DNA from: Myxococcales bacterium
Lineage (GTDB): Bacteria; Myxococcota; Polyangia; Polyangiales; Polyangiaceae
DNA length: 43,240 nucleotides
Reading direction: 5' to 3'
Assembly (NCBI GenBank): GCA_003151595.1
Contig: PLXW01000120.1
Span: 1-43,240 of the forward strand
The translations under genes were made by a program, and so were the position numbers. The first letter of the stretch is position 1, and the number at the start of each line of letters is the position of its first letter. This document shows positions 5,030 through 29,877 of the stretch, in pieces. A model generated the notes under the pieces. The model was not told the DNA's origin. It saw nothing but the letters and a program-made list of their open reading frames with translations, and did no database searches.

Positions 5030-5273
5030 CAGCATCCCGAAGCGTGGGATGCGCGGTCCGACGTGTCCCCTCGGCGTCCCGGAGCGCAAGGTGCGCGATC
5101 CAAGGCGTTGGACCGGCTTCCCGAGGCGTCGGGCGCGCGGTCCACGGCGTCGGACCGGCTTCCCGAGGCGTCGGGTGCGCGGTCCACGGCGTCGGACCGG
5201 CTTCCCGAGGCGTCGGGTGCGCGGTCCACGGCGTCGGGCCGGCTTCCCGAGGCGTCGGGTGCGCGTCCCACCG
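5030..5273. repeat. 42-bp tandem repeat array, about six copies
   Basis: Copies begin at 5030, 5072, 5114, 5156, 5198 and 5240, exactly 42 nt apart. The first two are degenerate, the next three nearly identical and the last is partial. Each full unit contains CCCGA-GGCG-TCGGG (for example 5120-5133), a 5-bp stem with a 4-nt loop. It also contains CGGTCC-N8-GGACCG, so the transcript of the array could fold into a row of small hairpins. There are no spacers, so it is not a CRISPR array. The divergence gradient (upstream copies decayed, middle copies uniform) suggests recent expansion by slippage or recombination. Confidence 0.9.
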
Positions 5274-5747: not shown

Positions 5748-6853
5748 CGTCGTCGTTCGTGCGGGTCGCGTCGCAGATCCTGTCGGCCGCGCTCGTCGCG
5801 CTCGTCCTCGGCGGGTGCTCGCAAGGGCCGGTGCTTCGCGGCCGCGTGAAGGGACTGGAGAGCGTCGTTCTGCAGGCCGAGAAGAACGGCGCGATGAAGT
5901 GCGCGCCGCGTGAGCTCGCGCTCGCCCGCTCGCAGCTCGAGTTCGCGAGCGTCGATCTGAGCCAGGGCGAGATGTCGGCGGCGAGGGCGCACCTCGAGAT
6001 CGCCGAGCCGAACGCGCAGGCCGCGCTCAGCGAGAGCCCGCCCGACAAATGCGCCGAGCGCGGCTTCGTCGAGACGCCGGGCGATCGCGACGGCGACGGC
6101 TACCCCGACACCGAAGACTCGTGCCCCGACCAGCCCGAGACCTGGAACGCCTACGACGACAACGACGGCTGCCCCGACGATCCCGACAGCGACAACGATC
6201 GCATCGCCGACTCGCACGACTCGTGTCTCATCGAGCCCGAAGACCACGACGGCTACCTCGACGACGACGGCTGCCCCGATCTCGACAACGACGCCGACGG
6301 CATCCCCGACGCGCTCGACAAGTGTCCCAACCAGCCCGAAGACATCGACGGCTGGCAGGACGAAGACGGCTGCCCCGACCCGGACAACGACGGCGACACG
6401 GTCCTCGATCTCGACGACCTCTGCCCGAACACCCCCGGCAGCCCCGGCGGCGAGCGCCCCGGGTGCCCGAAGAAGAATCAGCTCGTCGTCGTCACGGCGA
6501 GCGAGATCCGGATCCTCCAGCAGATCCACTTCGCCACCGGCAAGGCGACGATCCTCAAAGATTCGTTCGGCATCCTCGATCAGGTCGCGGGAGTCCTGAA
6601 GGACATGCCGAAGGTCTCGCTCGAAGTGCAGGGGCACACGGACAACGTGGGCGACAACGCCTACAACATGAAGCTCTCGCAAGCGCGCGCCGACGCCGTG
6701 CGGAAGTACCTCGTCGGAAAGAAGATCGAGGCATCGCGTCTCGTGTCGAAGGGCTACGGCCCGACGCAGCCGATCGTGCCGAACAGCAGCGACGCGAACC
6801 GTGCGCTGAACAGGCGCGTGCAGTTCATTCGCACCGAATCGCGCACGCCGTAG
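5744..6853 (+). CDS. OmpA-family lipoprotein with DUF4398-like and thrombospondin type 3 repeat regions
   Basis: The 369-residue product begins with a lipoprotein signal (Cys25 in LGGC). Residues 30-110 are helical and DUF4398-like. Residues 118-242 hold four Asp-rich thrombospondin type 3 repeats, such as DRDGDGYPDTEDSCPDQPE, which bind calcium and form a stiff stalk. Residues 255-365 are an OmpA C-terminal domain with GHTDNVGDNAYNMKLSQARA, including the Asp and Arg that bind peptidoglycan. The protein likely tethers the outer membrane to the cell wall through a calcium-dependent spacer. It overlaps the upstream lipoprotein gene by 4 nt. The reading frame stays open far upstream through the repeat array, but that part has no coding character. 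Confidence 0.92.
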   Translation: MTSSFVRVASQILSAALVALVLGGCSQGPVLRGRVKGLESVVLQAEKNGAMKCAPRELALARSQLEFASVDLSQGEMSAARAHLEIAEPNAQAALSESPPDKCAERGFVETPGDRDGDGYPDTEDSCPDQPETWNAYDDNDGCPDDPDSDNDRIADSHDSCLIEPEDHDGYLDDDGCPDLDNDADGIPDALDKCPNQPEDIDGWQDEDGCPDPDNDGDTVLDLDDLCPNTPGSPGGERPGCPKKNQLVVVTASEIRILQQIHFATGKATILKDSFGILDQVAGVLKDMPKVSLEVQGHTDNVGDNAYNMKLSQARADAVRKYLVGKKIEASRLVSKGYGPTQPIVPNSSDANRALNRRVQFIRTESRTP

Positions 6854-12401: not shown

Positions 12402-14324
12402 ATGCACGTACGCGTACGCCTCGCGCTCGCCCTCTCGCTCGCCGCTTCCCCCTTCGCCGCGCTCGCGTGCGGAGGTGCGCAGACGCCGGTTCAACCGCCG
12501 AACGCGAACGCGAACGCGAACGCGAACGCGAACGCGAACGCGAACGCGAACGCGGGGCCGGCGACGGTCGACGAGGCGCGCGCGTTCCTCGCGCAGGTCG
12601 ACGCGGATCTGCACACGCTCTGGCCCGCGCGCGATCGCGCCGCCTGGGTCTCGCTCACGTACATCACCGACGACACCGAAGCGCTCGCCGCCGCGGGCGA
12701 GCAAGCGACCGCCGCCTACGTCACCAAGAAGGTCCAGGAGTCGCAACGCTTCGCCGGCCTCGCGCTCCCCGACGATCTCGCGCGCCAGATGAAGCTCCTT
12801 CGCCTCGCGCAGACCGTCCCCGCGCCGAGCGATCCGAAGAAGGCCGGCGAGCTCGCATCGCTCGGCGCGGCGATGGGCGGCGCGTACGGCAAGGCCACGT
12901 ACTGCCCGCCGGCAACGTCGAAGCTCCGCCCCTTCCTGAAGAAGGGGGAGACGTGCATGCACCTCGAGGATCTCGAGAAGGTCCTCGCCACGAGCCGCGA
13001 TCCCGCCACGCTCGAAGAAGCGTGGAAGGGGTGGCACGACAGCGCACGCCCGCAGCGCGATCGCTACGTGAAGTACGTCGCGCTGGCGAACGAGGGGGCC
13101 AAGGAGCTCGGCTTTGCCGACGTCGGCGCGCTCTGGCGATCCGGCTACGACATGACGCCCGAAGCGTTCGAGGCCGACATCGAGCGCCTTTGGGGCCAGG
13201 TGAAGCCGCTCTACGACGAGCTCCACTGCTACGCGCGATCGAAGCTTCGCGCGAAGTACGGCAAGGACAAGATCCCCGAGCACGGGCTCATCCCGGTTCC
13301 GTACCTCTCGAACATGTGGGCGCAGAGCTGGGAAGACGAGTTCGATCTCCTCGCGCCGTACAAGGGCGAGCCGACGCTCGACATCGCCAAGGCGCTCGCC
13401 GCGAAGAAGATCGACGCCAAGGGGATGGTGAAGATCGGCGAGAACTTCTTCACGTCGCTCGGCCTCGATCCGCTCCCGGCGTCGTTCTGGGAGCGCTCGA
13501 TGTTCACCCGCCCGCGCGATCGCGAGGTCGTCTGTCACGCCAGCGCGTGGGACGTGAACTGGAACGACGACCTTCGCATCAAGATGTGCATCCAGCCGAC
13601 GACCGACGACCTCGTCGTCATCCACCACGAGCTCGGTCACGATTTCTACTACTCGCAGTACTACAAGATGCCGATCCTCTTTCAGACGACCGGCGCCAAC
13701 GACGGCTTCCACGAAGCCATCGGCGACACGATCGCGCTGAGCGTGACGCCGCAGTACCTGAAGGATCGCGGGCTGCTCGCCGAGACTCCGAAAGGGGACA
13801 AGAGCCGCATGGACGCGCTGATGAAGAAGGCGCTCGAGAAGGTCGCGTTCCTGCCGTTCGGGCTCACGATCGACAAGTGGCGCTGGGACGTGTTCGCCGG
13901 CAAGACGCCCCCCGAGAAGTACAACGCCTCGTGGTGGGCGCTGAAGGCGAAGTACCAGGGCGTGGCGCCGGGTGAAGCGCGCACCGAAGAGGACTTCGAT
14001 CCGGCGGCGAAGTACCACGTCGCCAGCTCGACGCCGTACATCCGGTACTTCCTCGCGTTCGTGTACGAGTTCCAGTTCCATCGCGCGCTGTGCAAGGCCG
14101 CGGGGTTCACCGGGCCGCTCGATCAGTGCTCGATCTACGGGAACAAAGCGGCGGGTGAGAAGCTGCGCGCGATGCTGGCAATGGGCGAGAGCAAGCCGTG
14201 GCAAGACGCGATGCAGGCCATCACGGGCGATCGCGCGGCCGACGCGTCGGCCATCCTCGAGTACTTCGCGCCGCTGCGCGGGTGGATGAAGGACCAGATC
14301 AAAGACGAGAAGTGCGGCTGGTGA
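12402..14324 (+). CDS. M2-family (angiotensin-converting-enzyme-like) zinc peptidase, secreted
   Basis: The 640-residue product starts with a signal peptide ending in ALACGG (Cys23), an imperfect lipobox, so it is periplasmic or a lipoprotein. Residues 34-51 are nine Asn-Ala dipeptides. The catalytic site is HELGH (409-413), with the third zinc ligand Glu438 in GFHEAIGD; these match the M2 peptidase layout, with one extra residue between them. M2 enzymes remove C-terminal dipeptides from peptides. The C-terminal half (SSTPYIRYFLAFVYEFQFH) is also characteristic. The start ATG has AAGG 8 nt upstream. It likely helps digest peptides outside the cytoplasm, consistent with a predatory or proteolytic lifestyle. 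Confidence 0.92.
   Translation: MHVRVRLALALSLAASPFAALACGGAQTPVQPPNANANANANANANANANAGPATVDEARAFLAQVDADLHTLWPARDRAAWVSLTYITDDTEALAAAGEQATAAYVTKKVQESQRFAGLALPDDLARQMKLLRLAQTVPAPSDPKKAGELASLGAAMGGAYGKATYCPPATSKLRPFLKKGETCMHLEDLEKVLATSRDPATLEEAWKGWHDSARPQRDRYVKYVALANEGAKELGFADVGALWRSGYDMTPEAFEADIERLWGQVKPLYDELHCYARSKLRAKYGKDKIPEHGLIPVPYLSNMWAQSWEDEFDLLAPYKGEPTLDIAKALAAKKIDAKGMVKIGENFFTSLGLDPLPASFWERSMFTRPRDREVVCHASAWDVNWNDDLRIKMCIQPTTDDLVVIHHELGHDFYYSQYYKMPILFQTTGANDGFHEAIGDTIALSVTPQYLKDRGLLAETPKGDKSRMDALMKKALEKVAFLPFGLTIDKWRWDVFAGKTPPEKYNASWWALKAKYQGVAPGEARTEEDFDPAAKYHVASSTPYIRYFLAFVYEFQFHRALCKAAGFTGPLDQCSIYGNKAAGEKLRAMLAMGESKPWQDAMQAITGDRAADASAILEYFAPLRGWMKDQIKDEKCGW
12501..12554 (+). repeat. 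Hexanucleotide microsatellite (AACGCG) x9 inside the M2 peptidase gene
   Basis: Nine perfect AACGCG units encode nine Asn-Ala pairs between the signal peptide and the catalytic domain. Unit gain or loss keeps the frame and would only change linker length. Confidence 0.95.
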
Positions 14325-19109: not shown

Positions 19110-19126
19110 GCGTTGCATCGCAACGC
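19110..19126. promoter_or_regulatory. Inverted repeat just upstream of the ricin-B/thaumatin gene
   Basis: GCGTTGC-ATC-GCAACGC is a perfect 7-bp inverted repeat, 5 nt before the minus-strand ATG at 19104. It overlaps the region where a ribosome or RNA polymerase would sit, so it could be an operator or a translational hairpin. Confidence 0.4.
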
Positions 19127-19301
19127 GAGTGCCAACGCCGACAAGCCTCGAATCCCGCGCGGTGCGTGTGCGCCGTCCGCGCGTCGCCGACGGGGCGCGA
19201 CGCGATCGGTCGCGGGGGTGACCGAATCGGTCCGGGTCGATGGACCAGCCGCGCGGCCTGCCGAACCGCGAGCGTCGGAGGCGCGTGCTAACGTGGGATC
19301 C

Positions 19302-20624
19302 GTGACGCGCGAGGGGCCCCGGGTCGTCGGGCGCTACGCCATCCATGGAGAGATCGCGTCCGGCGGGATGGCTGCCGTGCATTTCGCGCGCCTCACCGGA
19401 ACCGCGGGCGCGCGCACCGTCGCCGTCAAACGCGCGCACCCCCACCTCGCGCGCGAGAAGGAGTTCGCGCTGATGTTCCTCGACGAGGGGCGCACGGCGA
19501 TGCGCGTCCGTCACCCCAACGTCGTCTCCACGCTCGACGTGCTCCGGACGGGCGACGATCTCGTCCTCGTCATGGACTACGTCCACGGCGAGTCGCTGTG
19601 GAACCTGGTGCGCGCGGCGAAGGAGATCGACGAGCGCGTGCCGGTGCCGATCGTCGCGGCGATCTTGATCGACACGCTCCACGGACTCCAGGCCGCGCAC
19701 GAAGCGACCGACGAGCACGGCGCGCCGCTCGGGATCGTGCATCGCGACGTCTCGCCTCAGAACATCCTGGTCGGCGCCGACGGCGTCACGCGGCTCGTCG
19801 ACTTCGGGATCGCGAAGGCTGCGGGCCGACTCCACTCGACGCACGACAGCTCGGTGAAGGGGAAGTACGCGTACATGGCGCCGGAGCAGGTGCGCGGCGA
19901 GCACGTGAGCGCGGTGACCGACACGTACGCGGCGTCGATCGTCCTGTGGGAGCTGCTCACCGGCGAGCGCCTCTTCGTCGGCAAGACCGAGGCGGAGACG
20001 ATCCACAAGTGCCTCGTGGGCCGCGTGCAGGCCCCGAGCCTCGTGGCGCCTTCGCAGGGGACGACGTTCGACGCGCTCTTGAAGAAGGGGCTCTCGCGCG
20101 ATCCGGCGGCGCGCTACGCGACGGCGCGCGCGATGGCGAGCGACCTCGAGGCGTGTGTGGCGGCGGCGGTGCCGGCTGAAGTGGCGGCGTGGGTGACGCG
20201 GATTGCGGGCGATGCGCTCGCGGCGCGCGCGAGAACGATCGCGGAGATCGAACGGAGCGAGTCACGCGTGAGAGGGCGCTCGCGCCGAGGGGCGATCGCG
20301 CTGGCGCTCGTCCTCACGACGATCCCCGCCGCGCTGATCGCGGTGCAGATCGCAAAGCGAAGAGAGCCGACGCTATCTCCCCGCGAGGTCGCGATCGCGA
20401 TCGCGCTCGACGCGGCTCCCCCCACACCGGCCGCGGTGCCATCGGCCCCGGAAGCACCGAGCGCCGCTCCTCCCGACGCCGCCCCCAAAGCGACGTCGCC
20501 GATCACGCGCCCCCCTTCACGCGCGACCCCTCCGCGCTCGCGCCACCCGAAGCGCGCGGCGTGCGATCCGCCGTACTCGATCGACTCCGACGGAAAGCAG
20601 ATCTTCAAGCCCGAGTGCATGTGA
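19302..20624 (+). CDS. Membrane-anchored Ser/Thr protein kinase
   Basis: The 440-residue product has a Hanks-type kinase domain at residues 10-280. The Gly-rich loop is EIASGGMAAVHFA, the ATP-binding Lys is K43, the catalytic loop is HRDVSPQN (147-154), DFG is at 167-169 and APE at 193-195. The loop has Ser in place of the usual Lys of HRDLKPEN, a variant I recall as common in myxobacterial kinases. A membrane helix lies at about 329-351, followed by a short Ala/Pro tail that ends CDPPYSIDSDGKQIFKPEC, a tail seen in related kinases. A GTG at 19293 is an alternative start; 19302 has a TAACGT -10-like hexamer 7 nt upstream. Targets are unknown. The gene is 29 nt before a PEGA-like protein gene and may form an operon with it. 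Confidence 0.9.
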   Translation: MTREGPRVVGRYAIHGEIASGGMAAVHFARLTGTAGARTVAVKRAHPHLAREKEFALMFLDEGRTAMRVRHPNVVSTLDVLRTGDDLVLVMDYVHGESLWNLVRAAKEIDERVPVPIVAAILIDTLHGLQAAHEATDEHGAPLGIVHRDVSPQNILVGADGVTRLVDFGIAKAAGRLHSTHDSSVKGKYAYMAPEQVRGEHVSAVTDTYAASIVLWELLTGERLFVGKTEAETIHKCLVGRVQAPSLVAPSQGTTFDALLKKGLSRDPAARYATARAMASDLEACVAAAVPAEVAAWVTRIAGDALAARARTIAEIERSESRVRGRSRRGAIALALVLTTIPAALIAVQIAKRREPTLSPREVAIAIALDAAPPTPAAVPSAPEAPSAAPPDAAPKATSPITRPPSRATPPRSRHPKRAACDPPYSIDSDGKQIFKPECM

Positions 20625-21502: not shown

Positions 21503-21545
21503 GCCGGCGCGCGCGGCGAACGCCGTGCGTGCTACAGATCGGCAG

Positions 21546-22916
21546 ATGCCGCCGCGCGAACCGCCGGGAGATGGCGAGACACGCCGTCAAGCCGGGAGCG
21601 CCCCTCTCGCACCGACGAGCTTCGAAGTGCGGGTCGTCGAAGGACGCGACATGGGGGCGAGCGTCGCGATCGATGCGACCTCGGGCAAGGCGCTGCTCGG
21701 CACCGGCCCGCTCTGTGAGCTGCGCCTCACCGATCCGATGGTCTCGCGTCGCCACGCCTCGCTCGAGCTCACCGATCTCGGCGTGCTCGTGACCGATCTC
21801 GGCTCGACGAACGGATCGTTTCTGGGCGACGCGCGCGTCGTCGTCTCGTACCTCTCGCCGGGCGTGCGCCTGCGCGTCGGGGCGACGACGATCGACGTGC
21901 GCGCCGTCACGGCAGGGCCGGTGAAGCTGCGTCGCGCCGAGTCGCTCGGGCGCATGGCGTCGAGCAGTCCGCGCATGATGAACGTGCTCTCGCTCTGCGC
22001 GAAGCTCGCCGCCTCGGATGTCCCCGTCGTGCTCGAAGGGGAGACCGGCACCGGCAAAGAGCTCCTCGCCGAGTGCATCCACGAAGCGAGCGCGCGCGCC
22101 GAAGGTCCCTTCGTGGTCCTCGATTGCCGCACGACGCCGCGCGCGCTCGTCGAGGCGCACCTGTTCGGCGAGACACGCAGCGACGGGACGGTGCGCGCCG
22201 GCATCTTCGAGCTGGCGAACGGCGGAACGCTGCTTGTCGACGAGCCGGGCGATCTCGATCTCGACACGCAGGCCAAGCTCCTTCGCGCGCTCGACAAGGG
22301 GGTCATCGTTCGCCTCGGCGACACGAGCTCGATCGCCGTCGATGCGCGCGTGATCGTGGCCACGTCGCACGACCTCGACAAGCTGGTCGAAGAGAAGAAG
22401 TTTCGCGAAGACCTCTACTACCGCCTCGCCGGCGCGCGCATCGAGCTCCCGCCGCTGCGACGGAGGCGCGAGGACATTCCGCTCCTCGCCGGCGACCTGT
22501 GGACCGAGCTCGGAGGCAAAGGGCTCCTCCCCGACGAGTTCCTGGAGCGCTTCGAGGCGTACGAGTGGCCGGGCAACGTGCGCGAGCTGGAGCGCGCGGT
22601 GGAGCGCTTCCTCGCGCTCGGCGACAAGGTCTCGTTGCTCGTCACGCGCACGCATCGCCACGTGGCGCGCCCGCTTCTACCCGCGCTTCTATCCGAGGAC
22701 GACGACGCTCCCGCTGGTCCGAGCGAAGGGCTCCTCGAGCGCGTGCTGAACGCGAACCTCGCGTACTCCGAAGCGCGCCAGCGAATGCTCGAAGAGTTCG
22801 AGCGCGCGTACCTGGAGAAGGCGCTCGCCGACAATCACGGCAACGTCGCCGCCGCGGCCGCGTCGTCCGGGATCGCGCGTCGCCACTTCCAGCGCATTCG
22901 CGCGCGGCAGCGCTAG
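21546..22916 (+). CDS. FHA-AAA+ regulator of the NtrC family lacking the GAFTGA loop
   Basis: The 456-residue product begins with an FHA phosphothreonine-binding domain (residues 45-120, with SRRHASLE and DLGSTNGSFL). An AAA+ domain follows with Walker A GETGTGKE (165-172), Walker B LLVDEP (229-234), FREDLYYRL with an Arg finger, and WPGNVRELERAVE. The C-terminus (NHGNVAAAAASSGIARRHFQR) is a Fis-type helix-turn-helix. The sigma-54 contact loop GAFTGA, expected right after HLFGE near residue 210, is replaced by TRSDGTVRAGIF. Known members lacking this loop do not act on sigma-54, so this protein may use sigma-70 polymerase or repress. The FHA domain could read phosphorylation by the kinase encoded at 19302. 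An upstream GTG at 21525 is a weaker start. Confidence 0.9.
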   Translation: MPPREPPGDGETRRQAGSAPLAPTSFEVRVVEGRDMGASVAIDATSGKALLGTGPLCELRLTDPMVSRRHASLELTDLGVLVTDLGSTNGSFLGDARVVVSYLSPGVRLRVGATTIDVRAVTAGPVKLRRAESLGRMASSSPRMMNVLSLCAKLAASDVPVVLEGETGTGKELLAECIHEASARAEGPFVVLDCRTTPRALVEAHLFGETRSDGTVRAGIFELANGGTLLVDEPGDLDLDTQAKLLRALDKGVIVRLGDTSSIAVDARVIVATSHDLDKLVEEKKFREDLYYRLAGARIELPPLRRRREDIPLLAGDLWTELGGKGLLPDEFLERFEAYEWPGNVRELERAVERFLALGDKVSLLVTRTHRHVARPLLPALLSEDDDAPAGPSEGLLERVLNANLAYSEARQRMLEEFERAYLEKALADNHGNVAAAAASSGIARRHFQRIRARQR

Positions 22917-22998: not shown

Positions 22999-23799
22999 AT
23001 GAACGAGCTTCCGCGCTTCGCCTCCGAGCCTCCCGTGTCCGAAGTCGATCCGCTCGGACAGGAGCGCGAGCGTCCCGACGACGAGTTCGTCTTCGCCTTC
23101 CTCCGCTCGATGCCGATGACGTACCGGCGCCTCTTCGACGAGGGCGCGCAGCACGAGCACGCCGCCATCGCCTATCGCCGCGGCGCGAGCGCGTCGCACC
23201 TCGAGATCTGGCGGAAGCTCCCGGAGCGGATCGTCGCCATCACGCTCATCGCCGAAGATCGTCCGGGCCTCCTCTCGCGCGTGAGCGCCGCGCTCGTGGC
23301 GCACGACATGGACGTGGTGGCGGCGCAGGCGTACGGCCGCATGCGCGCCGACGGCGAGCGTGAAGCGGTCGACTTCGTCTGGATCCGGCGCCTCCCCGGC
23401 GACGGGGGAATGGCCCCTTCGATTCGAACGCGCGACGTCGCGCAGATCGGCGAGGCGCTCGACGCGCTCGTGCGCGGCCAGGCGAGCTTCGACGGCGCGG
23501 TGAGCTTCGCGCGCGCGATCCGTTCGGCAGACTCGTCGACGCGCGTTCGATTCGAACGCGACCTGCGCGACGGCGCCAGCGTGCTCCTGGTCGATGCCGT
23601 CGACCGCCCGGGACTCCTGCTCGTCGTGGCGCGCACGCTCTTCGAAGAGCGCGTCCAGATCGTTGGCTCGCACGTAACGACCGAAGAGGGGCACGTGCTC
23701 GACACGTTTCAGGTGACCGAGCTCGACGGATCGCCGCTCACCGGCGCCCGCCAGCTCGCCGTGCAGACCGCGGTGCTGGCGGCGCTCCGCGAAGGGTGA
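22999..23799 (+). CDS. Stand-alone double-ACT protein resembling the GlnD C-terminus
   Basis: The 266-residue product carries two ACT domains, at about residues 76-150 (IVAITLIAEDRPGLLSRVSA) and 196-266 (SVLLVDAVDRPGLLLVVART). Both have the DRPGLL ligand-binding turn. The arrangement, and the final Leu/Ala helices, resemble the C-terminal regulatory part of PII-uridylyltransferase GlnD, where ACT domains sense glutamine. The nucleotidyltransferase and HD domains are absent and no remnant lies upstream, so this is a free sensor module. The first 70 residues (YRRLFDEGAQHEHAAIAYRRG) are helical and of unknown role. It converges on the large kinase gene, 28 nt away. Confidence 0.82.
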   Translation: MNELPRFASEPPVSEVDPLGQERERPDDEFVFAFLRSMPMTYRRLFDEGAQHEHAAIAYRRGASASHLEIWRKLPERIVAITLIAEDRPGLLSRVSAALVAHDMDVVAAQAYGRMRADGEREAVDFVWIRRLPGDGGMAPSIRTRDVAQIGEALDALVRGQASFDGAVSFARAIRSADSSTRVRFERDLRDGASVLLVDAVDRPGLLLVVARTLFEERVQIVGSHVTTEEGHVLDTFQVTELDGSPLTGARQLAVQTAVLAALREG

Positions 23800-23827: not shown

Positions 23828-26800
23828 CTAAGGCTTCTGCTCCATGGCGTTACCACGGAGGTCGAGCTTCTTCTCGCCGGTCTTCTTGCCGGTGTCGTCG
23901 TACGCGCAGACCGTCTCGTGGATGCCGTGACTGTCGTGCGTGGGCTTGTCGTGCGCGTCGTAGAACGCGGTCTCCTCGACGTTGTTCCGCTCGTCGTACG
24001 TGCTCCGCGTCCGGGCGATGCCGCTCTTGTCCGCGTGGAGCGCGCCGCGCACGTCGTACGTCGCGATCTCCACGGCGTTGCCGCGCGAATCGTACTGCGT
24101 GCGGCGAACGGACCAGCCGTCTGCGGACATCGCCAACGCACCGTCGACGCCGAAGCACTGCTCTTCGATCTTGTGCCCCTGCGGATCGAACGTCTTTCGA
24201 TGCCCGGCACACCCGTCGTTCGCGCCGCGCGGCGCCGCTGACGCATCGACGAAGCGCTCGTCGACCGGGCGCCCCGCGTCGTCGTACTTCACGCGAACGA
24301 CGATCTTCCCTTCGATGGACGCGGTCGGCGTCCCGGCGCCGTCGAGGTAGGTCGTCTCGACCGCGCGACCGTAAGTGTCGCGGGCGTAGCGAACGACGGC
24401 GACTCCGTCGGGTCCCTTCGCCGGCGCCTCGTGCGCGTCGAGGTAGCTCGCTTCGACGAGGCGCTGGCGTGCGTCGAAGCGACTCCTGACCGACGCGTAC
24501 GTCGCGCCCTGCGGCATCACGAGCGCGTGATCGCCATTGAAATAAGCCTCTTCGACGACGTTACCGACGTCGTCGTGGCGCGTTCGCCGTAGCGACCAGC
24601 CGTCGGCGCCCACGGCCGGCTTTCCGTCGGTACCGAAGCGCGCTTCTTCGATCAGCTCGTCACGATCGTTGTACGTCTTCCGGGTCGTCGCGAAGCCGGC
24701 GTTCGTGCGAACGGGCTCTCCGCTCACGCCGCGCGCCGTCTCTTCGATCCTGTTGCCGCGCGCGTCGTACGCTTTGGTCATCGAGGCGTAGCCGTCGGTG
24801 AGCAGCGCGGGTTTCCCCGAGCCGTCGAGCGTGTCGGTGCGCACGAGGAGGCCGCGATCGTCGTAGCTGCGGCGCTCGATCGACCAGCCTTCCGTTCCCG
24901 TGACCGCCGCCCCGCCCTCGTCGAAGAGGGCCGTCTCGACCAGGCGACGATGAACGTCGTACGCCCTCTTCTTCTTCGCGCACCCGCAGTCGCGGTTCGT
25001 GACCGGCTCGTCGCGCTTTCCGAAGTACGACTCGAGGAGCACGTCGCCGTTTCGATCGCGCACGTACTTCACGCCGGCATAGGCGTCGCGTCGCAGGATG
25101 CGCTCTCCGTGCAGATCCAGGTATTCGTCTTCGATGACGAGCCCGCGGTCGTCGTTCGTGATGCGCCGCGTGGCGTACTCGCCTTTGTAGAGGACGGGCG
25201 CGCCGGTCGCGTCGAAGTATGATTCGGCGACGAGGTCGTCGTTCGCGTCGTACGTCCAGCGTTGCATCGCGAAGCCTTCGTCGCTCGCGATCGGCATGCC
25301 GTCCGTACCGAAGGAGGCGCGCTCGATCTCGTTGCGCAGACGGTCGAACTTCGATCGCTCGAGCGAGACGCCGTGCACGTTCGCCGTCGGGTGATCGTCG
25401 GGACCGAAGTACGCGAGGCTCGTCCGCAGGCCGCGCTCGTCGTAGGTCAGTCGCGTGATCGCGCCCTCGTCGCGCGCCGCGATGAGGTGGCCCGACTCGT
25501 CGAAGTTTCGCCGCTCGACGACGTACCCGCGTTCGTCATGCGCCATCGTTTGCTTCGCGTACCCCTCGTTGCAGGCCAAGAGGCCGCCCGCGGTGTCGAG
25601 CCCCTCCTGGGCGACGCGCTGATCGAGGTCGTCGTACGTCCATCGATACGCGGTCACGTTCTGCAGGTGGCGGCGCGCGCGGTTCCCGTTCGGATCGAGA
25701 AATTCTTGAAGCACCATGCGGCCGCGGTCGTCGAGCGTCTCGCGCGCCGACGAGAACGTGTCTCCCGTCCGGAGGCGAGGTCGCCCCTCCGCGTCGCTCC
25801 ACGCGACGGTGCCCACGCGCTTTGCCGGATCCCAATCGAAGCGAATCTCGTGCGAGCCACCCCACTCGCCGAACTGCACGAGCGGCTCGCCGTGCGCGCC
25901 GAAGAATCGAGTGTCGCGCTGGTCGTCTTCGCTCGAGAACGTGACCCGGAGCATGTAAGCGCCCCCCACGCTCATGGGGTGGCCATCGAGATCGATGTAC
26001 CGCGTCTCGTGTCCCGGGGTGTCGTCGTCGCTGACCTCGGTGAGGCTCGATCCGTCCTTGGCGGCCGCGGGGGCGCCGTCGGCCCCGAGCACCGTCGTGC
26101 GGATGGGGCGGCCGAGTCGGCCATTCACGAAGACCCGTCCGTACGCCCCGTCGTCCGCCGCGCGCGGCTTGCCGTTCGCACCGAAGAAGGCGACGCGCGC
26201 GACGAGCCCCCGCGAATCGAACTCGCGATGGACGGTCGTGATCCGCGTGTCGGGATCCTCCTCGCCGAGCTCCGTTGCGTGACGGGGAGTCGCGCCGTCT
26301 TCGTCGACGAAGTCGACCGTGTGGCCTCCGTTGGACCATTTCTGACGTTCGGTGACGTTGCCGCGGGCGTCGTGGCTCACGATCTCGCGCACCGAGCCGT
26401 CGTCGGCGCGCGTGATCTCGCCTCGCATGGAGTGGCGCTCGCCGTGACCGTAGGCGCGCCCCGCGATGCTGACCGTCTCGAGCTTCGTGACGCGACCGCC
26501 GACCGTGGTCACGCGCCACGTCCAGTCGTACAAACGCTTGGCGACGGCGTCCTCGCCGACCTCGCGCACGCAGCGCGGACCGTCGATCGCGTCGACCATG
26601 GTCGCGCAGTACGTCACGCGCGGCACGTGGCTCGCGCGGTACGGGATCGCCCACGCGAGCACCGCCACGCACGCCAACCCCGCGGCGGCCAGGTAGCGGC
26701 GTGATCTCGGCGCGATCGATCGACGCGCGCTCTGCGCCATCGCCGCGCGCGTCGAAGCGCCCGGCGTCCTCGCCTCAATCGGTGCGGCCGCCGTCGGCGC

Positions 26801-27832
26801 GAACGCCGTCCCCGACGAGACCCCACGCGCGCTCGCAAGGGGCCGCCCGCTCGACGCGTCGACCGTCGCGTCGACGCCCGACGGCGTCGAGGTCATCGCC
26901 GGCGGCGTGGCGCTCTTCGGCAGCGTCGCGATCGGCGTGCCGAGCCCCTCGATGCTCGCCTTGTGAAGCGCTTCGCGCATCGCCTGCGCGCTCGGCCAGC
27001 GGTCCTTCTTCTCGAACGCGATCGCGCGATCGATCACGTCGACGATCGGCTTGGGTACGTCGGGCGCGAGACCGGCGAGCGATCGCGAGGGCTTGGTCGC
27101 CACGTTCACGAGGAGCTGCGGCGCGTTCTCTCCCTCGTGCACCAGCTCGCCCGAGAGCAGCGTGAACAGCGTCGCCCCGGTCGACCACACGTCGCTCTGC
27201 GCGTCGACGTCGCCCGCTTTCGCGAGCGCTTGCTCCGGCGACATGAACGCGGGCGTCCCCAGCATTGCGCCGCTCACCGTCGCGCTCGCGCCCGCGTCGT
27301 CGCGCAAGCGTGCGATGCCGAAGTCGAGCACCTTCAGCGCGCCGTCGTTCGTGAGGAACAGGTTCGCCGGCTTGAGATCGCGATGCACGATCCCGTTCGC
27401 GTGCGCCGCCGTCAGCACGTCGAGCAGCGCGTCGCCGATCGAGAGCACGAGCGGCACCGGCATGCGTCGCGCGTAGCGGGTCCACACCTCGTCGACCGCG
27501 GACCCGTCGAGCAGCTCCATGACCAGGAACGCCGCGCCGTCTTCGGCCACGTCGTCGTCGAGCACCGCCACGGCGCCGGGGTGCTTCACCGAGTTCGCGA
27601 CGTACCCCTCGCGAAGAAAGCGCGAACGCACGCTCTCGTGCATCGAGATCTCGGCGTGCAGCATCTTGATCGCGAATTGCTTGTTGTTGCGGTGCGTGGC
27701 CACGTACACCGCGCCCATCCCGCCCACGCCGAGGACGCGATCGAGCCGGTATTTTCCGCGCAGCGTGCTGCCGATGCGATCGCGAGCGACCTCGAGGAGG
27801 TGATCTTCCGGCATGCGAGCGTCGACCGCCAT
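23828..27832 (-). CDS. Giant Ser/Thr kinase with a YD-like repeat ectodomain
   Basis: The 1334-residue product has a complete kinase domain (residues 29-290): GVGGMGAVYVA, Lys56, HRDLKPAN (150-157), DFG (170-172) and SPE (198-200). A Thr/Ala/Ser-rich juxtamembrane linker leads to one membrane helix at about 380-398. The remaining 930 residues or so are predicted outside the membrane. They contain roughly 20-25 repeats of 32-34 residues with the pattern YDxRGxxVExxxFDxxGxPxxxxxGxxxxR. These resemble RHS/YD repeats, which form beta shells, but no toxin or protease core is visible. Starts: ATG 27832 is used; ATG 27814 is possible and a -10-like TACGAT overlaps 27832. The longer frame to 28279 runs through the divergent lipoprotein gene and is rejected. 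The ectodomain probably senses an envelope or extracellular ligand. Confidence 0.87.
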   Translation of the reverse strand: MAVDARMPEDHLLEVARDRIGSTLRGKYRLDRVLGVGGMGAVYVATHRNNKQFAIKMLHAEISMHESVRSRFLREGYVANSVKHPGAVAVLDDDVAEDGAAFLVMELLDGSAVDEVWTRYARRMPVPLVLSIGDALLDVLTAAHANGIVHRDLKPANLFLTNDGALKVLDFGIARLRDDAGASATVSGAMLGTPAFMSPEQALAKAGDVDAQSDVWSTGATLFTLLSGELVHEGENAPQLLVNVATKPSRSLAGLAPDVPKPIVDVIDRAIAFEKKDRWPSAQAMREALHKASIEGLGTPIATLPKSATPPAMTSTPSGVDATVDASSGRPLASARGVSSGTAFAPTAAAPIEARTPGASTRAAMAQSARRSIAPRSRRYLAAAGLACVAVLAWAIPYRASHVPRVTYCATMVDAIDGPRCVREVGEDAVAKRLYDWTWRVTTVGGRVTKLETVSIAGRAYGHGERHSMRGEITRADDGSVREIVSHDARGNVTERQKWSNGGHTVDFVDEDGATPRHATELGEEDPDTRITTVHREFDSRGLVARVAFFGANGKPRAADDGAYGRVFVNGRLGRPIRTTVLGADGAPAAAKDGSSLTEVSDDDTPGHETRYIDLDGHPMSVGGAYMLRVTFSSEDDQRDTRFFGAHGEPLVQFGEWGGSHEIRFDWDPAKRVGTVAWSDAEGRPRLRTGDTFSSARETLDDRGRMVLQEFLDPNGNRARRHLQNVTAYRWTYDDLDQRVAQEGLDTAGGLLACNEGYAKQTMAHDERGYVVERRNFDESGHLIAARDEGAITRLTYDERGLRTSLAYFGPDDHPTANVHGVSLERSKFDRLRNEIERASFGTDGMPIASDEGFAMQRWTYDANDDLVAESYFDATGAPVLYKGEYATRRITNDDRGLVIEDEYLDLHGERILRRDAYAGVKYVRDRNGDVLLESYFGKRDEPVTNRDCGCAKKKRAYDVHRRLVETALFDEGGAAVTGTEGWSIERRSYDDRGLLVRTDTLDGSGKPALLTDGYASMTKAYDARGNRIEETARGVSGEPVRTNAGFATTRKTYNDRDELIEEARFGTDGKPAVGADGWSLRRTRHDDVGNVVEEAYFNGDHALVMPQGATYASVRSRFDARQRLVEASYLDAHEAPAKGPDGVAVVRYARDTYGRAVETTYLDGAGTPTASIEGKIVVRVKYDDAGRPVDERFVDASAAPRGANDGCAGHRKTFDPQGHKIEEQCFGVDGALAMSADGWSVRRTQYDSRGNAVEIATYDVRGALHADKSGIARTRSTYDERNNVEETAFYDAHDKPTHDSHGIHETVCAYDDTGKKTGEKKLDLRGNAMEQKP

Positions 27833-27992: not shown

Positions 27993-28556
27993 ATGAAGCT
28001 CGCCCACGCTCTCTCGGCCGCGATCACGATCGCTTCCGTCACTCTCGTCTTCGCGTGCGGAGGGCAATCGAACAGCCCTGCCACGACGCCGTCGTCCAAC
28101 GACGCGGGGAACAACCCCGTCTCGACGAACGACGCGGGCAATACGAGCGGCGACGACGGCGGAGGCGCGACGTGCACCGTCGCCGGAGGGTGCCCGACGG
28201 CCGGCGACGTCTGCTGTTTCACGGCGTCGACGACGGGCACGTGCGTGCCGAAGGCTTCGTGCGCCGGAGTGACCGTCACTCAGACCTGCACCGCGGGAAG
28301 CTGCGGCAGCCAGGTCTGCTGCGCCTCGTTCGCCGGAACGGCGCTGTCGACGGCGTGCGCGGCTTCGTGCACCGGGCAGTCCGCGCAGCTCTGCAGCGCC
28401 AGCGCGCCGTGCCCGCCGGGCGACACGTGTCAGACGGCCGCCGGCTACGGCATCTGCCTCCCGAGCAACCTCGGTCAGACTGACGGCGGCAACGCGGGTG
28501 ACGACGGCGGGTCGTCGATCGACGATGGCGGCTCGAGCGACGCGACAGGCGAGTGA
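27993..28556 (+). CDS. Cys-rich surface lipoprotein
   Basis: The 187-residue product has a lipoprotein signal (Cys22 in VFACGG). An Asn/Asp/Ser/Gly linker follows, with DAGNNP and DAGNTS repeats. Residues 60-160 hold about 18 Cys in patterns such as CPTAGDVCCF, CGSQVCC and CPPGDTC, likely forming a disulfide-knotted domain. The tail is Asp/Gly/Ser-rich. Such lipoproteins are abundant in Polyangiales and are probably surface-exposed; no function is known to me. It is divergent from the giant kinase and converges on the NDH-2 gene, 28 nt away. Whether it is a ligand for the kinase ectodomain is only speculation. Confidence 0.75.
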   Translation: MKLAHALSAAITIASVTLVFACGGQSNSPATTPSSNDAGNNPVSTNDAGNTSGDDGGGATCTVAGGCPTAGDVCCFTASTTGTCVPKASCAGVTVTQTCTAGSCGSQVCCASFAGTALSTACAASCTGQSAQLCSASAPCPPGDTCQTAAGYGICLPSNLGQTDGGNAGDDGGSSIDDGGSSDATGE

Positions 28557-28584: not shown

Positions 28585-29877
28585 CTAGCCGCGGCGCTCG
28601 TCGTGCCTCTTCGGCTCGAGCCTCGGCGTGCTCCAGGTGATGAGCCGCGCGCCGCGCTTGTAGGTCACGTACGACCAGAACCACTCGAACATCACGATGA
28701 CCCGATTGCGAAAGCCGATCAGGTACCAGAGGTGAATGAAGAGCCACGCCAGCCAGGCGACGAAGCCGCTCAGCTTGAAGCCGAACGGCTCGGCGATCGC
28801 GCGTGAGCGGCCGATGGTGGCCATGATCCCTTTGTCGACGTAGTGGAACTCGCCGCGCGCGCGCCCGGCGATCGACGCGCGGATCGACTTGGCCGCGAAC
28901 GCTCCGCCCTGCATCGCCACCTGGCTCACGCCGGGGAGAGGCGCGCCGTCTTGATCGAGGCGCATCATGTCGCCGATGACGAACGCTTCGGGGTGATCGG
29001 GGACCGTGAGATCGCGGCCGACGATGACGCGCCCCTGTTTGTCGAGCGGCACGCCGAGAGAGCGCGCGATCGGCGACACGGCGACCCCCGCGCCCCACAC
29101 GACGCTGGCCGACTCGATCCGCTCGTGGGCTCCCTCCGCCGTCGTGAGCGACACGCCGCGCTCGTCGATGCACGTCACGCGCGTCCCCGTGCGCACGACG
29201 ACGCCGAGCTCCTCGAGCTGCGAGACGGCGCTCGCCGACATCGACTCGTGGAACGCCGGCAAGATGCGCGGCCCCGCCTCGAGCAAGATCACGCGCGCCT
29301 CTTCGGGGTGGATCGAGCGGAAGTCCTGGCGCAGCACGAAGCGACGAAGCTCGGCGAACGCGCCCGCGAGCTCGACGCCCGTCGCGCCGCCGCCGATGAC
29401 CACGAACGTGAGCAGTCGCTTTCGTTCCGTCTCCTCGGGGGTCCGCTCGGCGCGCTCGAACGCGAGGAGCGTGCGACGCCGGACTTCGATCGCGTCGTCG
29501 AGCGACTTGAGTCCCGGCGCGTACGCCTCCCAGTCGTCGTGCCCGAAGTAGTTCGTGTGCATCCCGGCGGCGAGGATCACGTAGTCGTACGGCACGGCGC
29601 CGTCGTCGAGCGTCACGCTCTTCTTCGCGAGATCGATCCCGACGACGTTCGCCAGCTGCACGTCGAGGTTCTTCTGCTTCGCCAGGATCGATCGAATCGG
29701 CGACGCGATGTCGGCCGGCGAGAGCCCCGCGCTCGCCACTTGATAGAGAAGCGGCTGAAACAGATGATGGTTCGTGCGATCGATGAGCGTCACGTGCACG
29801 GCGTCACGCTTCAACGCCTTCGCCGCGGTGAGCCCGCCGAAGCCTCCGCCGATGATGACTACGCGCGGGGTCTCCAT
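28585..29877 (-). CDS. ndh: Type II NADH:quinone oxidoreductase (NDH-2)
   Basis: The 430-residue flavoprotein has two dinucleotide folds: an N-terminal FAD site IIGGGFGGLTAAKAL and an NADH site VVIGGGATGVELAGAFAE. Family-typical motifs are NHHLFQPLLYQVASAGLSPADIA, the quinone/flavin-side VIGDMMR near residue 290, and QGGAFAAKSI. A C-terminal amphipathic and hydrophobic region (FVAWLAWLFIHLWYLIGFRNR) docks it to the cytoplasmic membrane. It passes electrons from NADH to quinone without pumping protons. The start ATG has TACGTT 8 nt upstream on the minus strand, a possible leaderless promoter. It stands alone between a convergent lipoprotein gene and a divergent methyltransferase gene. Confidence 0.93.
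   Translation of the reverse strand: METPRVVIIGGGFGGLTAAKALKRDAVHVTLIDRTNHHLFQPLLYQVASAGLSPADIASPIRSILAKQKNLDVQLANVVGIDLAKKSVTLDDGAVPYDYVILAAGMHTNYFGHDDWEAYAPGLKSLDDAIEVRRRTLLAFERAERTPEETERKRLLTFVVIGGGATGVELAGAFAELRRFVLRQDFRSIHPEEARVILLEAGPRILPAFHESMSASAVSQLEELGVVVRTGTRVTCIDERGVSLTTAEGAHERIESASVVWGAGVAVSPIARSLGVPLDKQGRVIVGRDLTVPDHPEAFVIGDMMRLDQDGAPLPGVSQVAMQGGAFAAKSIRASIAGRARGEFHYVDKGIMATIGRSRAIAEPFGFKLSGFVAWLAWLFIHLWYLIGFRNRVIVMFEWFWSYVTYKRGARLITWSTPRLEPKRHDERRG

Follow-up and report, generated by a model that had tools for sequence, protein, structure and literature searches.

A probable receptor-type serine/threonine kinase with an array of YD-type hairpins as its predicted sensor in a Myxococcales bacterium

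Bacterial serine/threonine kinases of the PASTA type, such as PknB and Stk1, consist of an N-terminal Hanks kinase, a linker, one transmembrane helix, and an exported C-terminal part. Arrays of YD-type beta-hairpins belong to a different literature: the YD/RHS shells known so far either encase toxins or form the core of teneurins. Teneurins and bacterial teneurin-like proteins (TLPs) contain a YD hairpin array, and teneurins are in addition single-pass proteins with the N-terminus inside and the array outside (PMC5851990, PMC13018210); the second of these papers places TLPs in over 20% of Myxococcota species (PMC13018210). Here we describe a gene whose predicted product joins these two designs. 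It lies in a stretch of 43,240 nucleotides (contig PLXW01000120.1 of assembly GCA_003151595.1, hereafter the window), and its parts are as follows.

23828..27832, minus strand: whole receptor-kinase gene, an open reading frame (ORF) of 1334 amino acids
26975..27751, minus strand: Hanks-type Ser/Thr kinase domain, residues 28-286 (Pfam Pkinase)
26696..26974, minus strand: juxtamembrane linker, residues 287-379, rich in Pro, Ser, Thr, and Ala
26639..26695, minus strand: transmembrane helix, residues 380-398, by hydropathy
26441..26638, minus strand: cap next to the membrane, residues 399-464, in which C409 and C421 are invariant
26237..26440, minus strand: irregular hairpins leading from the cap to the regular repeats, residues 465-532, from the structural model
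23831..26236, minus strand: regular array of 25 YD-type beta-hairpins, each some 32 residues long, residues 533-1334

We consider it probable that this protein is a single-pass inner-membrane receptor Ser/Thr kinase with its N-terminus in the cytoplasm and a periplasmic YD array as its sensor. The GC content at third codon positions of the gene is 0.88. Its open frame extends past 27832, to 28279, and the database copy of the protein (P0002, 1350 amino acids) starts 16 residues further upstream.

The ectodomain is repetitive at the level of protein sequence. Autocorrelation with BLOSUM62 over residues 461-1334 gave a mean of +0.31 at lag 32, while the best of 200 shuffles reached -0.62 (lags 28-39). 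Tandem Repeats Finder reported no DNA-level tandem array at the ectodomain, so the units have diverged and the repetition persists at the protein level. The TIGR01643 YD_repeat model passes its cut-off (33.4 vs 15.8 bits), and the Pfam RHS_repeat model falls short of its own (19.6 vs 22). An AlphaFold2 model of the ectodomain (pLDDT 92.1, pTM 0.85) predicts hairpins throughout, with a regular one at the C-terminal end. We split the modeled ectodomain into 29 hairpin units, the 25 regular ones (residues 533-1334) having 29-35 residues and mostly 32. By sequence, no solved structure was found for residues 545-1334. Every one of the best 40 Foldseek rows for the model is a shell of the Rhs, Tc-BC, teneurin, TLP, or SGS1 type, with E-values down to 1.7e-35. 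The TM-scores between the model and these rows range from 0.15 to 0.47, which bears on whether the array is open or closes into a shell. A preliminary description of this gene, made from its sequence alone, had proposed a YD/RHS-type ectodomain and called for a structure prediction, and the profile match, the confidently folded hairpin array, and its Foldseek neighbors all agree with that proposal. Its layout needs revision, as the regular array begins only at about residue 533 and residues 399-532 form the cap and the irregular hairpins. Units of the proposed 32-34 residues do occur, with 32 as the dominant period; the proposed 20-25 repeats over some 930 residues become 25 regular units, and the 936 residues behind the helix include the cap region.

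The closest structural relatives are the Rhs polymorphic toxins and Tc BC shells (best matches 7q97 and 8qja, also 4o9x), which have the YD motif in common with the window protein. Unlike them, it has its units in a fixed 32-residue register, carries a transmembrane helix and a kinase, and has no match in Pfam or NCBIfam to an Rhs-associated core, autoprotease, toxin, protease, or secretion-marker domain; the earlier statement that no toxin or protease core is visible was therefore borne out in these scans. It likewise differs from teneurins and TLPs, since its cytoplasmic part is a protein kinase, there is no Pfam match to an NHL model, and no propeller appears in the predicted structure.

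To find other kinases with this ectodomain, as the preliminary description had suggested, we scored the 7995 candidate proteins with most shared words and obtained 106 proteins, namely P0002, 63 kinase-YD relatives, and 42 more distant matches. All 63 relatives have the same kinase-helix-YD architecture at 40-52% identity, 60 of them with lengths of 1274-1421 amino acids and three with 1115-1168. Register was compared in 45 aligned rows for the 16 units whose length is exactly 32 residues; a unit matched its same-numbered counterpart best in 622 of 704 comparisons (chance 1 in 16), and identity was 51% between same-numbered units and 28% between others. None of units 5-29 has a mean gap fraction above 0.07 in these rows, and a hidden Markov model (HMM) counted 22-26 units in 62 of 64 clade rows (P0002 and the 63 relatives), the remaining two (18 and 19 units) being short entries. 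Because the register is kept and unit counts are stable across the clade, the array looks like a fixed structure, unlike an expanding repeat tract. The idea that repeat number varies between relatives as a tag or identity code consequently finds no support in this clade, where units are conserved one-to-one.

The predicted cytoplasmic part has the features of an intact kinase. The Pfam Pkinase match has an E-value of 5.7e-36, the catalytic motifs HRDLKPAN, DFG, and SPE are all present, and HRDxKPxN is kept in 62 of the 64 clade rows (the window protein and its 63 relatives), which upholds the earlier reading of an intact Hanks kinase. In its order of kinase, linker, single helix, and probably exported C-terminal part, the protein matches PknB and Stk1, but Pfam and NCBIfam scans found no PASTA domain, and the kinase part alone matches NF033483 (positions 2-272 of 563) with 220 bits against a cut-off of 450. 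By analogy, the protein would work as PASTA-type receptor kinases do, except that its sensor is built of teneurin/Rhs hairpins. In the linker, T361 is a threonine in 25 of 27 rows of a low-complexity alignment and is a possible autophosphorylation site.

Between the kinase part and the array, the helix at residues 380-398 has a mean hydropathy of 1.78 and is directly preceded by RSRR. Across the clade (P0002 and the 63 relatives), hydropathy at this place is at least 1.6 in 54 of 64 rows and at least 1.4 in 61, in accordance with the single membrane helix originally proposed. The positive-inside rule is weak within the clade (45 of 64 rows). Only four ectodomain columns have Cys in more than 20% of rows (409, 421, 1208, and 1226), and in each it is found in 100% of 45 rows, with C1208 and C1226 located in units 25 and 26. 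Four invariant columns would make two Cys pairs, which suggests two disulfides and hence export. Related genomes point in the same direction. Among 21 repeat-bearing ORFs from them, 10 have a kinase match and seven have a lipobox pattern ahead of the array; L120, L122, and L131 were dismissed by eye because their lipobox lies outside the N-terminal signal stretch, leaving four with an accepted N-terminal lipobox (L123, L124, L127, and L132), three of which have the FC...C cap. By eye, L122, L126, and L128 are lipoprotein-like at other places, outside the lipobox pattern. Based on the Cys pairs and the lipoprotein relatives, we argue that the array is exported, and since a single inner-membrane helix in a Gram-negative cell would leave it in the periplasm, it is probably periplasmic. 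The outcomes named beforehand as speaking against a receptor, cytoplasmic or disordered repeats or an unused membrane helix, are thus at odds with the confident fold, the Cys pairs, and these relatives. As a separate observation, the four accepted ORFs are putative YD-repeat lipoproteins, which might serve the receptors as free partners or as decoys.

Outside the kinase-YD clade, the same kind of ectodomain is attached to other kinases and to other domains. We gathered 158 distinct non-clade proteins from the 42 distant matches and from new ones among 120 of the 637 matches to a TIR-type ectodomain (7991 candidates scored). With output labels copied by hand from a precomputed Pfam column, these comprise 48 kinases, 45 with TIR, 42 with nSTAND1, six with both TIR and nSTAND1, four with other domains (AAA_35, trypsin, and DUF262), and 13 with no output called, which brings TIR to 51 of 158 and nSTAND1 to 48. 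Sister receptors thus carry TIR or nSTAND1 in place of the kinase, as in bacterial conflict proteins, while the window protein has neither domain. In P0099 and P0102, the TIR part shows a weak similarity to defense TIR models, below cut-offs. A PDZ domain is present in 46 of the 158; it is C-terminal in the three proteins whose position was examined (P0066, P0084, and P0102), and that of P0084 and P0102 weakly resembles DegP, HhoA, and RseP models, far below cut-offs. Possible further outputs on YD-repeat proteins are a weak cyclase-like domain (P0107), a trypsin-like domain (P0153), and DUF262 (P0162).

These proteins are linked to the clade by the cap as well as by the repeats. An HMM of the cap built from 21 non-clade proteins matches 131 of the 137 others (E < 0.01), giving 152 of 158 with a cap, while the best E against reversed sequences was 0.055. 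A helix (hydropathy of at least 1.6) lies near the cap start, from 50 residues before to 20 after it, in 129 of 152, as opposed to 0.6% of 70-residue stretches in the same proteins, and its N side is the more positive in 127 of the 129, so that the positive-inside rule is strong in this wider family. Singly, just two of 65 clade rows reach E < 0.01 with this HMM, so the link exists at the profile level only. There, the clade cap matches that of the others with a probability of 97.2 and an E-value of 4.4e-11. A first control on the gapped alignment (50 shuffles) gave a maximum probability of 99.8 and a score of 133, above the real 58.2. For a second control, only columns occupied in half or more of the rows were kept; with the sparse columns removed the profiles matched with a probability of 97.9 and a score of 61.7 over 63 columns (63.5 without context counts), and 160 column shuffles reached 15.1 at most. 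Because the cap profile scores 17.8-28.1 against repeat stretches of the clade, the cap may itself have arisen as a pair of hairpins that diverged strongly. For P0095, a TIR-type protein, the predicted structure (pLDDT 84.9, pTM 0.54) has an N-terminal alpha/beta domain, a helix of low confidence at 211-225, and the same hairpins as the window protein, with Rhs shells and teneurins as its best Foldseek rows, and the cap order strand-strand-helix-strand-strand is common to both models.

The best reading of these comparisons is that the window kinase would represent a single branch of a superfamily of receptors whose outputs are interchangeable. On a tree of the cap (162 rows, 85 columns), the output labels need 13 changes, where the least is three and the shuffled mean is 73. 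We do not claim independent, repeated swapping of outputs, as the starred branches of this tree force just one change per label. Source names of the family include Polyangiaceae, Gemmataceae, Thermoguttaceae, Rhodomicrobium, Caulobacterales, Luteolibacter, Microvirga, and Gammaproteobacteria. We tentatively propose, as a reading that we rate slightly below even odds, that the cap with its YD array is a general bacterial receptor ectodomain, an extracytoplasmic recognition domain joined across the membrane to TIR, nSTAND1, or Ser/Thr kinase outputs in several phyla. Its design would then parallel that of animal Toll-like receptors and of receptor kinases in plants, and the window kinase would be a conserved branch in Polyangiaceae and relatives. 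If this is true, bacteria possess transmembrane receptors designed much as innate immune receptors are, YD arrays act as bacterial receptors independently of toxins, and the receptor use of a teneurin-type fold has another bacterial setting. The precomputed Pfam columns of family proteins list PF27244 and PF27537, which may already name part of the module, although P0028, listed with PF27244, had no such match in a local Pfam scan. As the preliminary description supposed, a receptor kinase with a YD/RHS ectodomain seems not to have been described: among the matches listed, judged by title and the start of the abstract, we found no account of the family in the open-licence literature, and no paper there combines "YD repeat" with "TIR domain". 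By term search, two conflict-system papers contain neither "RHS" nor "YD repeat" (PMC8195603, PMC7159879).

For signaling, we envisage that the YD array stands in the periplasm, held by two disulfides, and that binding of a ligand would alter the association of receptors. The kinase would then autophosphorylate, perhaps at T360/T361 of the linker, and pass the signal on to cytoplasmic substrates. Because sister proteins carry HtrA/RseP-like PDZ domains and conflict-type TIR or nSTAND1, our guess is that the ligand could be a cue of envelope state or of an invader, for example a mislocalized or cleaved envelope protein, a cell-wall fragment, or a phage or toxin component. The preliminary description had suggested that the receptor perhaps serves cell-cell contact or the recognition of kin or prey, which finds no support here; by inference from the sister proteins, a cue from the envelope or an invader is the likelier ligand. 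A surface-exposed contact receptor, whose kinase would report contact as teneurins do between animal cells, is in our estimate improbable. Polyangiaceae, a family with social and predatory members, supply four of the 63 relatives by name, and the fold type is common with teneurins, which are type II single-pass receptors (PMC5851990, PMC13018210). However, one inner-membrane helix would keep the array in the periplasm unless the outer membrane is crossed, the NHL match and propeller are lacking in a model made of hairpins throughout, the units are individually conserved in fixed register, and the ectodomain recurs with TIR and nSTAND1.

Those same TIR and nSTAND1 outputs, together with the weak defense resemblance of the P0099 and P0102 TIR parts, would suit an immune-type receptor in which the array senses attack on the envelope by phage or toxin and the kinase drives a defense or suicide response. 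We regard this as unlikely for the window protein, though somewhat less so than a contact receptor, as the clade is conserved and not diversifying, the ten neighboring ORFs contain no defense domain by Pfam (no fuller defense scan was made), and the PADLOC matches of the kinase look generic, being to PD-T4-6 models that the other kinase of the window (19113-20624) also matches. Still less credible is that the helix is unused and the array forms a cytoplasmic scaffold of the kinase. The helix does fall below a hydropathy of 1.4 in three of 64 clade rows and below 1.6 in 23 of 152 wider members, but the invariant Cys pairs, the lipoprotein relatives, and the positively flanked helix at the cap start of most wider members all speak for a membrane-spanning protein. 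The least probable of the alternatives is a toxin-like or delivery protein whose array encloses cargo, with the kinase as payload or regulator. Enclosure of toxins by YD arrays is described for Tc complexes and postulated for other proteins (PMC6425310, PMC5851990), yet here the Rhs core, autoprotease, toxin, and secretion-marker matches are missing, the kinase is N-terminal and followed by a transmembrane helix, and the last hairpin is the end of the protein. A membrane-spanning receptor kinase accordingly remains our preferred reading.

With the window ectodomain as the query, at least 21 of 183 genomes matched in the order to which G002 belongs (G002 carries L022, a locus from a Polyangiaceae metagenome-assembled genome). 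At least 20 of 108 genomes matched in the family that includes G131, as did at least 20 of 377 in a sample drawn across the phylum. Scoring was limited to 4, 8, and 2 first-look candidates per genome, respectively, which makes all three counts lower bounds. Among the genomes matched, only G131 and G129 have orthologues. In two genomes, the orthologues are 66-69% identical to the window protein in the kinase and 45-49% in the part of the ectodomain present. The plasmids searched gave no match. In a contig scan with a full-length alignment, in which a kinase motif dominated, 80 of 586 relatives were kept, and two of eight genomes from those 80 loci had weak matches when searched with the ectodomain. 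Two tandem kinase genes were also seen at L001:9953-12096, the second, cut by the contig end, being 49% identical over residues 18-286; it may be another orthologue, and its genome has no ectodomain match.

The genes around the kinase gene are listed below.

19113-20624, plus strand: second Ser/Thr kinase, downstream and convergent, adjoining the FHA-sigma54 gene; by eye, its kinase domain is followed by a hydrophobic stretch
21525-22916, plus strand: FHA-sigma54 activator, downstream of the kinase gene and convergent
22999-23799, downstream and convergent: ACT-domain protein that resembles GlnD's C-terminal portion
27993-28556, plus strand: Cys-rich putative lipoprotein of 187 amino acids, upstream and divergent, with no Pfam match
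28585-29877, upstream: NDH2-like oxidoreductase

The lipoprotein gene starts 160 or 112 bases from the two possible kinase starts. No window neighbor was found by tblastn (E 1e-8) at the two orthologue loci L115 and L116, where both orthologue genes are cut by a contig end and the 5' side was compared, and the Cys-rich lipoprotein is absent from the ORFs of at least 80 amino acids (GC-filtered) upstream of both; on that side, no partner gene conserved as in an operon was seen. Judging by protein type, the FHA-sigma54 protein is a plausible target of the window kinase. The activator and the second Ser/Thr kinase are themselves a possible phospho-signaling pair.

Three tandem arrays lie elsewhere in the window: 9.3 perfect tandem copies of the hexamer CGAACG at 12499-12554, an array of 42 bases per unit at 5035-5265 (95% matches at 5090-5265), and one of 99 bases per unit at 6121-6397, whose consensus unit, by eye, we presume able to encode Asp-rich repeats like those of calcium-binding thrombospondin type 3.

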